Positions 2,142-5,120 of a stretch of DNA of 64,000 nucleotides are shown piece by piece. Position 1 is the stretch's first letter; every line of letters begins with the position of its first letter. Origin of the DNA: Paramagnetospirillum caucaseum. GTDB lineage: Bacteria; Pseudomonadota; Alphaproteobacteria; Rhodospirillales; Magnetospirillaceae. The stretch lies in the NCBI RefSeq assembly GCF_000342045.1, contig NZ_AONQ01000008.1, positions 1 to 64,000 on the forward strand, given 5' to 3'. The notes below the pieces were generated by a model. The model saw only the letters and a list, made by a program, of their open reading frames with translations, made no database searches and had not been told where the DNA came from. A program made the position numbers and the translations under genes.

Positions 2142-2149
2142 TGGATTGT

Positions 2150-2264
2150 CCCTCAATCGCCGGGCGCCCGCCTCCGCGGGCATGGCTTTCCTCCGCGGCT
2201 GCTCCCTCGCCCAGGCTCGGGGCCGCTCCGGGGCGCTCAATGCGCCCGCGTTCGCTATGCTCGC
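2150..2264 (-). repeat. intergenic hairpin-rich repeat, copy A (ubiU-ubiV gap)
   Basis: This 115-bp gap shares a recognisable core with 14336-14455: TGTCCCTCA, two variable bases, CGCCGGGCG, a hairpin, then TGGCT and CCTCCGC. In this copy the hairpin arms are GCCCGC/GCGGGC (about 2168-2183). In the other copy the arms differ but still pair. It lies between two co-directional operon genes, so it may tune expression or stability of the ubiV message. Part of it stays open in the ubiV frame, but no ribosome site supports translation. Confidence 0.5.
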
Positions 2265-3272
2265 TCATCGCCAGGCTTTCTCGTAGGCGCCGGTGGTCTG
2301 CTTGCCGCCTTCGGTGATCCGGTCGAGATCGATGTCGGGCAGGGGCTTGCCGGCCATCACCGCGTCCACGCCGGCGCGGAAGGCCTGGACCACGGCGGCC
2401 ACATAGGCGCGGCCGCGCTGGCGGCCCTCGATCTTGAAGGCGGTGACTCCGGCCTTGACCAGGTCGGGCAGCATGGAGAGCGTATTGAGCGAGGTGGGCT
2501 CCTCGAACAGGTAGCTGGCCTTGTCCTTGGCGATGAAGCGGCCCTTGCACAAGGTGGGATAGCCGGCCGGCTCGTCGTGGGCGAACTTGTTGATGGTGAA
2601 GCCGCCCAGCTCCGAGGTGATGCCCTGGGACGTCTCGGTGTAGCGGACCTCGCCGGCCGGCGAGCACACGCCGTTCATGTTGGGCGACTGGCCGGTGGCG
2701 TAGGACGACAGGGCGCAACGCCCCTCGGCCATGACGCACAGCCCGCCGAACACGAAGACCTCGGTCTCCACCGGCGCGATGCGGGCGTTGACGGCGGCGA
2801 TCTCTTGGACCGTCAGCACGCGGGGCAGCACCACCCGGCGCACTCCGAAGCGCTCGGCGTAGAAGCGGATGGCGTCGGGGTTCGAGGCGGCGGCCTGCAC
2901 CGAGAGATGCAGGCGCAGCTCGGGATGGGCGCGGTGGGCGTGCTCGATCAGGCCGATATCGGCCAGGATGGCGGCGTCGGCCTTGAGTTTGGCGGCGTCG
3001 GCCACCGCCTGGTGCCAGATTTCCGGCTGACCGGCGCGGGGGAAGGTGTTGATGGCCACCAGCACCTTGGCGCCCCGCTCGTGGGCATAGGCAATGCCCT
3101 CGGCCAGTTCCTTGCGGTTGAAGTTGAGGCCGGGGAAATTCCGCGCATTGGTCTCGTCGCGGAAGCCCACATAGACGCAATCGGCGCCGGCATCCACGGC
3201 GCTGCGCAACGCCGCCGGGGTTCCGGCCGGGCAGACCAGCTCGGGACGGTTGGGGGAGGCGACCGACGCCAT
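2265..3272 (-). CDS. ubiU: O2-independent ubiquinone hydroxylation protein UbiU (U32 peptidase-like)
   Basis: UbiU is the partner of UbiV in anaerobic ring hydroxylation. The protein has 335 aa. Its Cys residues at 179, 186, 203 and 242 have gaps of 7, 17 and 39 residues. As I recall, that matches the E. coli UbiU cluster ligands (169, 176, 193, 232) with a constant offset of ten, so the 4Fe-4S site looks intact. The LVCPAGTPA start (residues 12-20) and the YVGFRDETNARNF segment are typical of the family. The start codon overlaps the ubiT stop (TGATG), implying translational coupling. Related YhbU/U32 peptidases lack this exact Cys spacing, so the assignment is firm. Confidence 0.95.
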   Translation of the reverse strand: MASVASPNRPELVCPAGTPAALRSAVDAGADCVYVGFRDETNARNFPGLNFNRKELAEGIAYAHERGAKVLVAINTFPRAGQPEIWHQAVADAAKLKADAAILADIGLIEHAHRAHPELRLHLSVQAAASNPDAIRFYAERFGVRRVVLPRVLTVQEIAAVNARIAPVETEVFVFGGLCVMAEGRCALSSYATGQSPNMNGVCSPAGEVRYTETSQGITSELGGFTINKFAHDEPAGYPTLCKGRFIAKDKASYLFEEPTSLNTLSMLPDLVKAGVTAFKIEGRQRGRAYVAAVVQAFRAGVDAVMAGKPLPDIDLDRITEGGKQTTGAYEKAWR

Positions 3273-3952
3273 CAGGCCACGCCTCCGCGCCGGGCCGCCT
3301 TGCGCAATTGCTTCAACTCCCCCTCCAGTTGGGCGATACGCGCCCCCTGGTTGGCGGAATCCTTGACCGCCGGGGCGATGATGGCGGCGCGGAGCGTCTC
3401 GAAATCCTCGCGCATCCGGCCCACCAGGCCGATCACCGCGCCGGCCAGACCGCGGAACGGCCGGGCCAGCGGCCCCAGTTCCTGGGCCATGTCCTCGATC
3501 AGGTCGATGCCGGCGCCGTCGATGGCGTTCCTGAGCGCCACCACCACCTCGGTATCGCCCTCGATCACCAGGCGGCGCGAGAAGAACAGGGCGTCGCCGT
3601 CCACCTTGCCTTCGGCGAGCGCGATCAGCATCTCCAGCGGGCCGTGGATGGTGGCGGCCACCTCGCCGGGCTCGATGGAGCGGCGCACGGTCAGACGCGG
3701 GTCTTCGGGGTTGGGCTCCAGCAGGATGACGAAGGGCAGGTCGACCGGATCGATGCACACCGCCTTGTCGGCGTAATCGGCCATGCGCTCCAGGATGTCG
3801 GGGTGGCGGCGGCGCACCACCTTCAGCATGGCGTCGAACAGCGGCTGCAGCGCCGCCGGGCGCAATGGCTTCAGGGCCATGCCCAGCAGCAGCACCGGCG
3901 AGAACGGCGGCGTTACCGGCGTGGTCCCGGTTCTGGCGTGTGCTTGCGTCAT
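3272..3952 (-). CDS. ubiT: SCP2-domain ubiquinone biosynthesis accessory factor UbiT
   Basis: UbiT is an SCP2 lipid-binding protein thought to present hydrophobic quinone intermediates to UbiU/UbiV when oxygen is absent; it parallels UbiJ of the aerobic pathway. This 226-aa protein has an SCP2-like core over roughly residues 45-150, with a typical PGEVAATIHG stretch that precedes the lipid pocket helices, and a charged C-terminal coiled tail (about 195-215). The ATG at 3952 is preceded by GAAAGAGGGC about ten bases upstream; a longer frame from 4009 would start inside the regulatory box and is rejected. It heads the operon and directly follows the FNR-type site at 4009-4022. Confidence 0.9.
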   Translation of the reverse strand: MTQAHARTGTTPVTPPFSPVLLLGMALKPLRPAALQPLFDAMLKVVRRRHPDILERMADYADKAVCIDPVDLPFVILLEPNPEDPRLTVRRSIEPGEVAATIHGPLEMLIALAEGKVDGDALFFSRRLVIEGDTEVVVALRNAIDGAGIDLIEDMAQELGPLARPFRGLAGAVIGLVGRMREDFETLRAAIIAPAVKDSANQGARIAQLEGELKQLRKAARRGGVA

Positions 3953-3979
3953 GACGTGCGGCCCTCTTTCAAGACAGGC

Positions 3980-4022
3980 ATTCTGCCGAGCGGTGATAGC
4001 CCCGCTCATTGACCGCCGTCAA
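3980..4022 (-). promoter_or_regulatory. FNR/FixK-type promoter of ubiTUV
   Basis: Positions 4009-4022 read TTGACCGCCGTCAA, a perfect TTGAC-N4-GTCAA dyad matching the FNR-family pattern TTGAT-N4-ATCAA. On the minus strand a CAGAAT hexamer (3985-3980) gives a predicted start near 3973, so the dyad centre falls at about -42, the class II activator position. The predicted leader to the ubiT ATG is about 22 nt. Anaerobic FNR control of ubiUV is known in E. coli; here it is inferred from the site alone. Confidence 0.7.
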
Positions 4023-4133
4023 GCAAACGACACGAGGAGCCGCCCAGTCGGAAGGATTAAGCTCCAGTAGGGCTTGGCAGAGGCCCGCGCCCTGGCTAAC
4101 CTCAGAAAGACCTGCACACGGGGGATTGTCCGG

Positions 4134-5120
4134 ATGAACATCGATGTCGATCTGAGCCCCATCACCGCGCTCATCATCGACGATTCGCGCTATGCCCGCT
4201 CGTTCATCAAGACGGCGCTGCAATCCTTCGGCATCAAGACCATCCTCGAGGCGGGGGACGGCCCCTCCGGCCTGGAGATCCTGGGCCGGCAGCCGATCCA
4301 GCTGGTCATCGTCGATCACGACATGGCGCCCATGGACGGCATCGACTTCACCCGCTTCGTGCGGGCCGGCGACATGGTGGCCTGCGACGACGTGGCGATC
4401 ATCATGATGAGCGCCGAATCCGCCACCGAGGTGGTGTTCCAGGCCAGGGGCGCCGGGGTGAACGAATTCCTGGTCAAGCCCATGTCCACGGATTCCCTGT
4501 TCCGCCGCATCAGGAACGCCCTGGTCAATCCCAAGGCCTTCGTGCGCACCCCCGGTTTCAAGGGCCCCGACCGCCGGCTGCTGTCGCGTCCACCGCCCGG
4601 CGTGGCCGATCGCCGGGTGGCGCCGCCTTTGCCCAAGCCGCTGCCCCTGGTGGTGCCGGCGGGCGCCGCCGCCGCCGCCCGTCCCACCGCCGCTCCCCAT
4701 GCCCCCGTCGTCCAGGCGCCCAAGCCCGCCCAGGAACGCACCGGGCGCAAGAAGTTCCATGCCGGCCAGATCATCTTCAGCGAGGGCGATGCCGGCGACA
4801 TGGCCTATGTGGTGGAAAGCGGCAAGGTCACCATCTTCAAGACGGTGAACGGCCAGAAGGTCACCCTGGGCCAGATCGGCCCCAACGGCGTGTTCGGCGA
4901 GATGGCGCTGATCGACAACGAGCCGCGCATGGCCTCGGCCATGGCCGCCGAGGATGCCGTCTGCCTGGTGATTCCCATGGCGGCGCTGAAATCCCAGATC
5001 GGCAAGACGCCCGACCTGGTGATCCTGGTGCTGGAAACCCTGCTCTACGACATCCGCAAGATGGGCCGCGAACTGGGCCAGGTGCGCGCCACCCTGGAAA
5101 AGAAGCGGGCGGGGAAGTAG
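4134..5120 (+). CDS. response regulator with cyclic-nucleotide-binding domain
   Basis: This 328-aa protein has an N-terminal receiver domain (about 10-130) with acidic residues D16/D17, phospho-acceptor D61, the MMSAES switch and the conserved Lys of FLVKP. An Ala/Pro-rich linker (about 145-210) follows, then a Crp-like cNMP-binding domain (about 215-310) with the phosphate-cassette pattern FGEMALIDNEPRMASA. There is no HTH or enzymatic output, so it probably signals by protein contact. The ATG at 4134 is chosen over an earlier frame opening at 4074 because GGGGGATTG precedes it. It is divergent from ubiT; the FNR box lies between the two genes, about 110 bp from this start. Confidence 0.88.
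   Translation: MNIDVDLSPITALIIDDSRYARSFIKTALQSFGIKTILEAGDGPSGLEILGRQPIQLVIVDHDMAPMDGIDFTRFVRAGDMVACDDVAIIMMSAESATEVVFQARGAGVNEFLVKPMSTDSLFRRIRNALVNPKAFVRTPGFKGPDRRLLSRPPPGVADRRVAPPLPKPLPLVVPAGAAAAARPTAAPHAPVVQAPKPAQERTGRKKFHAGQIIFSEGDAGDMAYVVESGKVTIFKTVNGQKVTLGQIGPNGVFGEMALIDNEPRMASAMAAEDAVCLVIPMAALKSQIGKTPDLVILVLETLLYDIRKMGRELGQVRATLEKKRAGK

Follow-up and report, generated by a model that had tools for sequence, protein, structure and literature searches.

A possible nested promoter pair sharing one FNR-type site upstream of ubiTUV in Paramagnetospirillum caucaseum

The window analysed here, a 64,000-nucleotide stretch of the P. caucaseum genome, carries three adjacent minus-strand genes encoding UbiT, an SCP2-domain protein (coding positions 3275-3952, stop codon at 3274-3272; NCBIfam NF047962, 70.7 bits against a cut-off of 46.9; Pfam SCP2), UbiU, a U32 peptidase-like Fe-S protein (2265-3272; NF047963, 518.8 bits, cut-off 440), and UbiV (1245-2141; NF047965, 369.6 bits, cut-off 275). 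All three products (P0001-P0003) exceed their NCBIfam equivalog cut-offs, which settles their families at the level of sequence and marks the operon as a candidate for oxygen-independent ubiquinone synthesis. Alignment with the E. coli K-12 proteins matched the four Fe-S cysteines of UbiU (C179/186/203/242) to C169/176/193/232 and those of UbiV (C41/173/186/190) to C39/180/193/197, bearing out the original prediction that the cysteine spacing of both proteins follows the E. coli clusters. The same prediction called the operon compact, which holds for ubiT and ubiU, where the ubiU ATG at 3272 overlaps the ubiT stop as TGATG, but not for ubiU and ubiV, which lie 123 bp apart. This spacer (window positions 2148-2266) contains pieces of 26-49 bp that recur, 82-97% identical, at several sites elsewhere in the genome, and in some relatives it measures only about 15 bp; a small dispersed repeat therefore seems to have been inserted inside the operon. 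The spacer folded no better than its shuffles (z -0.84), giving no sign of a structured RNA, and a search of the ubiT leader for structured RNA found none. The genome also encodes a UbiH-type oxygen-dependent hydroxylase (L186; TIGR01988, 349.6 bits, cut-off 224.65), so the aerobic route is represented as well, by one enzyme at the least.

Translation of ubiT is assigned to the ATG at 3952, a position supported by conservation in relatives after seven duplicate loci (L001-L005, L008 and L014) were removed from the comparison, and a Shine-Dalgarno-like AAGAGGG lies at 3962-3968 on the minus strand. The start at 4009 of a 245-aa open reading frame is a mechanical call; the same conservation puts the start at 3952. 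On the plus strand, the divergent gene at 4134-5120 encodes a protein with a response-regulator receiver and a cyclic-nucleotide-binding domain (Pfam PF00072 and PF00027 only; no HTH found), and it adjoins ubiT in many loci of the family. It is probably not part of the regulation discussed below. As a regulator it was ruled out by the lack of a DNA-binding domain in Pfam, and a divergent promoter for it at the dyad described next was rejected because no plus-strand -10 element occurs at class II spacing. Several relatives with the dyad gave no tblastn match to this gene upstream of ubiT; two of them, L090 and L095, keep both the dyad and the P1 promoter described below.

The intergenic region contains an exact FNR-type dyad, TTGAC-N4-GTCAA, at 4009-4022 (TTGACCGCCGTCAA; minus-strand reading TTGACGGCGGTCAA), 56 bp upstream of ubiT and just as originally predicted. 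It is the single perfect TTGAY-N4-RTCAA site in the whole window, in which seven sites occur against 1.73 expected when one mismatch is allowed. Across the 4.86-Mb genome, 29 perfect dyads were counted against one for the reversed control pattern. Other dyads precede genes for a COX1-family oxidase, a cytochrome d1 protein and a molybdopterin oxidoreductase (Pfam), which we read as ccoN, nirS and napA; the dyads fit an FNR-type regulon in this organism. One further dyad, at 22178 of contig C29, lies 70 bp before the start of a gene for a CRP-family regulator without a Cys motif (L142), which suggests a regulatory cascade or self-control.

To place the dyad in a comparative frame, we assembled a family set of 55 genomes, of which 51 had a ubiT match and contributed upstream regions, and a second set of 58 ubiT upstream regions from other Alphaproteobacteria with UbiT identity below 55%. 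Within 200 bp upstream of ubiT, the 51 family sequences gave 26 perfect dyads (dinucleotide shuffles: mean 0.04, maximum 1), and a perfect dyad is present in 31 of the 58 others. Many FNR-bearing relatives are without the dyad, a point against the switch proposed below.

Downstream of the dyad, the minus-strand hexamer CAGAAT (3980-3985) forms the putative -10 element of a candidate class II-type promoter, here named P2, with a predicted start at about 3974-3973. Among 35 perfect dyads from the other alphaproteobacterial loci, the only clear -10 peak lies at offset 36 from the first base of the dyad (mean match 3.09 of 6, 11 of 35 by the strict count), an offset that places the dyad centre at -41.5. 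CAGAAT begins 37 bp past that base, which puts the dyad centre near -42 relative to the predicted P2 start. The predicted position of about -42 was thus correct, and the accompanying claim of exact geometry is one base off the ideal spacing. CAGAAT as the sole promoter was rejected as an incomplete account, since another hexamer, at offset 24, is better conserved.

That hexamer belongs to the element which, within the family, is the best conserved of those preceding ubiT, a predicted housekeeping-type promoter (P1, TTGACG-N18-TATCAC, with TATGAC in most relatives) whose -35 hexamer, TTGACG at 4017-4022, is the left half-site of the dyad itself and whose -10 hexamer, TATCAC, lies at 3993-3998, both on the minus strand and separated by 18 bp; the predicted start is at about 3986-3984. 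The exact arrangement TTGAC-N19-TAT[GC]A[CG] was present in 34 of the 51 family upstream regions, in none of 200 rounds of dinucleotide shuffles and in none of the 58 other alphaproteobacterial regions. The 18-bp spacer is kept in all 34 exact sequences, eight of which have an imperfect dyad, and TTGAC is invariant in these 34 anchored sequences, broken palindromes included; in one further locus, L105, the spacer is 17 bp. Information content in the anchored alignment reaches its maximum at TTGAC, stays high through TATGAC and drops directly afterwards, and the G-rich spacer is conserved as well. Family sequences show -10 peaks at two offsets, 24 and 36/37, and those of the other Alphaproteobacteria at one, 36.

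Set against an RpoD consensus, P1 offers TTGACGG and GCTATCAC with a spacer of 18, one consensus A of the -10 element being replaced by C in this genome and by G in the majority of relatives. This fits the Caulobacter RpoD consensus TTGaCgS/GCtANAWC, with its spacing near 17 bp (PMC8144410); for M. gryphiswaldense a promoter consensus of cTTGcc/TATaaT with 11-20 bp between the elements is reported (PMC9549626). A generic sigma-70 scan of 3900-4200 found nothing, but that scan demands T at the last -10 position, where P1 has C. Genome-wide counts showed no enrichment of the pattern (CTTGAC-N17-19-TATNAC, two sites against three for the reversed control), but the TATNAT form, serving as positive control, was just as flat (one against one), which leaves this test without power. 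Only one other exact TTGAC-TATGAC pair at P1 spacing occurs in the genome (L194, 1501-1531), and a SAM_alpha riboswitch (RF00521, 71.2 bits, gathering threshold 36; model start at 1529) located ahead of a Cys/Met-metabolism gene has its first stem, from 1538, 7 nt after the end of that hexamer. Since the aptamer has to be part of the transcript, initiation is expected at the position set by this -10 element. Taken in its own right, L194 (1501-1607 of contig C18) presents a CTTGACG...GCTATGAC promoter directly before the SAM-II (SAM_alpha) riboswitch of a metZ-like gene, and supplies a useful example of a variant -10 element in this genome.

We then asked how the two promoters are distributed relative to the dyad. 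TTGAC together with a TATGAC-like hexamer provided an anchor in 36 family upstream regions; L103, whose hexamer was CTGGCG, was judged spurious and removed, leaving 35 rows, while 15 of the 51 regions have no anchored P1-type arrangement, though most of their genomes contain an FNR-like match. P2 was scored as present when a hexamer at offset 36 or 37 from the dyad start had A at position 2, T at position 6 and at least three matches. By this criterion P2 accompanies 24 of the 26 intact dyads, the exceptions being L090 and L095, and none of the nine broken ones, a comparison for which the Fisher test ignores relatedness; offset pairs without 36 or 37 yielded a P2-like hexamer in at most five of the 26 intact-dyad rows. 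Where the dyad is intact, the P2 hexamers differ from one another in sequence, yet A2 and T6 are retained at class II spacing. On the UbiT tree, with six changes of the dyad and seven of P2, a pairs test found four independent contrasts among supported branches, most of them in agreement and none opposed (p = 0.125, four pairs being too few for this test to reach significance).

A candidate reader of the dyad is encoded in the genome: of 13 CRP-type HTH matches, ten of them over the cut-off, L111 alone combines the N-terminal motif CRNCDIVREIAFC with C127 (C27/C30/C39/C127), and most of the others lack a Cys motif. We assign L111 as the FNR ortholog, although its matches to the NCBIfam FnrL and Fnr models fall below their cut-offs. 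Its cysteines reproduce by offset, shifted by two, the ligand pattern Cys25/28/37/125 given for MgFnr of M. gryphiswaldense (PMC4065386). At E 1e-60, no FNR ortholog was found in three 100% complete genomes of the M. molischianum clade (G004, which is M. molischianum DSM 120, G006 and G015; best matches 25-27% identity). Their ubiT upstream regions (L096, L094 and L093) are exactly the three that carry TTGACTTCCGCCGA: the right half-site is gone, P2 is absent by the criterion above and P1 is intact. The promoter elements, their conservation and this one clade lacking the FNR gene, the half-site and P2 together are read directly from the DNA. The three loci form one clade on the UbiT tree, and the loss therefore counts as one event. 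Genome-wide, the three FNR-less genomes hold 18, 8 and 10 dyads against 3, 1 and 1 for controls (12-33 dyads in the 14 remaining genomes of the genus), which speaks against full collapse of the regulon; as dyads stay above control without FNR, some are presumably used by other members of the CRP/FNR family. Two of these genomes, G004 and G006, encode a CRP-type protein with an N-terminal CxxC and no third cysteine (L180 and L183), perhaps a different redox sensor. Separately, four family genomes without a ubiT match (G019, G022, G027 and G032) also gave no FNR match at E 1e-60; three of them have weaker relatives at 40-48% identity, G027 standing outside that comparison.

The dyad centre lies near -30 relative to the predicted P1 start, so FNR bound there should occlude P1 rather than activate it. 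In the E. coli gal operon, a protein of the CRP family acts through a single site to turn on one start while blocking a second that overlaps it. With the dyad near -30 for P1 and near -42 for P2, we propose a gal-like switch for ubiTUV, in which the one-site logic would be the same while regulator, signal and genes differ. Two overlapping promoters would share a single FNR site: RpoD would use P1 (-35 at 4022-4017, -10 at 3998-3993) for oxygen-independent basal transcription, and P2 (-10 CAGAAT at 3985-3980) would depend on FNR in class II fashion. At low oxygen, [4Fe-4S] FNR would bind the dyad at 4009-4022, cover the P1 -35 element and recruit polymerase to P2, some 12-13 bp downstream of P1. 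The cell would then always hold some UbiTUV and make more of it, or hand over control, once oxygen-dependent hydroxylation fails. We infer RpoD use of P1, FNR binding, P1 occlusion, P2 activation and the oxygen dependence from these sequence features, and put the chances of the switch as a whole, with P1 basal and FNR both occluding P1 and activating P2, at about even. The broader reading, in which an FNR half-site doubling as the RpoD -35 element makes the region a family-specific, oxygen-set selector of start sites and the FNR-less lineage keeps the housekeeping start only, is tentative and falls a little short of that.

A plain class II FNR-activated promoter, in which only P2 matters and TTGAC/TATGAC is conserved for some other reason, would agree with the sole peak at offset 36 in the other Alphaproteobacteria, with the occurrence of P2 alongside intact dyads and with the S. 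granuli ubiT site listed at -40.5 (PMC7713065). It is nonetheless unlikely, as P2 alone leaves unexplained an invariant TTGAC-N18-TATGAC that is kept in eight sequences without a perfect dyad and absent from the other Alphaproteobacteria examined. Conversely, P1 might be the only real promoter, with FNR on the dyad/-35 element acting as a repressor that lowers or limits ubiTUV at low oxygen; P1 is indeed the best conserved element, its dyad centre lies near -30, and repression of nor and nosZ by MgFnr under aerobic conditions has been reported (PMC4065386). The retention of A2 and T6 in P2 hexamers that lie at class II spacing from intact dyads tells against such repression, as do the reported cases, in which FNR or a homolog activates ubiTUV (PMC11707229), and we give this reading little credence.

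The dyad could instead be read by another CRP/FNR-family protein, of the cysteine-free FixK/Dnr type, whose signal would not be oxygen directly. Ten CRP-type HTH proteins over the cut-off, most without a Cys motif, and the continued enrichment of dyads in the FNR-less relatives favour such a reader; yet the clade without FNR is the very one whose ubiT half-site is badly broken, and it has other CRP-type proteins, which makes this decidedly improbable in our view. The conserved G-rich spacer might suggest that the 33-bp block is no RpoD promoter but a composite site at which some additional regulator binds; this seems very improbable indeed, given that the -35 and -10 sequences and their spacing fit RpoD and that the same pair precedes a riboswitch at transcription-start distance.

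FNR control of ubiTUV has been demonstrated in both E. coli and P. aeruginosa, with S. granuli as a suggested further case, and candidate FNR sites precede 1362 of 1566 ubiTUV triplets across Pseudomonadota (PMC11707229). Being already published for Pseudomonadota, the core observation is not new; the reading of ubiTUV as FNR-driven is partly supported, by the FNR-type site, the FNR ortholog, the class II spacing to a -10-like hexamer and this literature, but it had missed P1. The genes, the motif and the predicted positive control are alike in that survey, whose section on FNR sites describes no overlapping RpoD promoter; the names Magnetospirillum and Rhodospirillales are absent from its main text. 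S. granuli is likewise an alphaproteobacterial ubiTUV case with class II geometry, differing in that the account of its ubiT site mentions no nested promoter (PMC7713065). E. coli ubiT has an aerobic, FNR-independent p1 and an FNR-dependent p2, and FNR also activates ubiUV (PMC10470549). The pairing of an FNR-activated promoter with an aerobic FNR-independent one is shared, but in E. coli ubiT and ubiUV are divergent and there are two FNR sites, F2 lying 19 nt downstream of the p1 start, whereas here a single site stands before an operon of three genes, and one half of that site is proposed to be the -35 element of the second promoter; E. coli reaches a similar ubiT logic with separate elements (PMC10470549). 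A non-exhaustive search of the literature on UbiUV, FNR, Magnetospirillum and Phaeospirillum found no description of a nested ubiTUV promoter.

The overlap of P1 with the FNR site is accordingly a variant that goes beyond the known link between FNR and ubiTUV. If the proposed switch is true, it would account for the way in which cells at the boundary between oxic and anoxic zones maintain a constant stock of UbiTUV and adjust it quickly, and it would be a clear case of a regulator site that arose over a housekeeping promoter, for which the FNR-less clade would offer a ready natural control.
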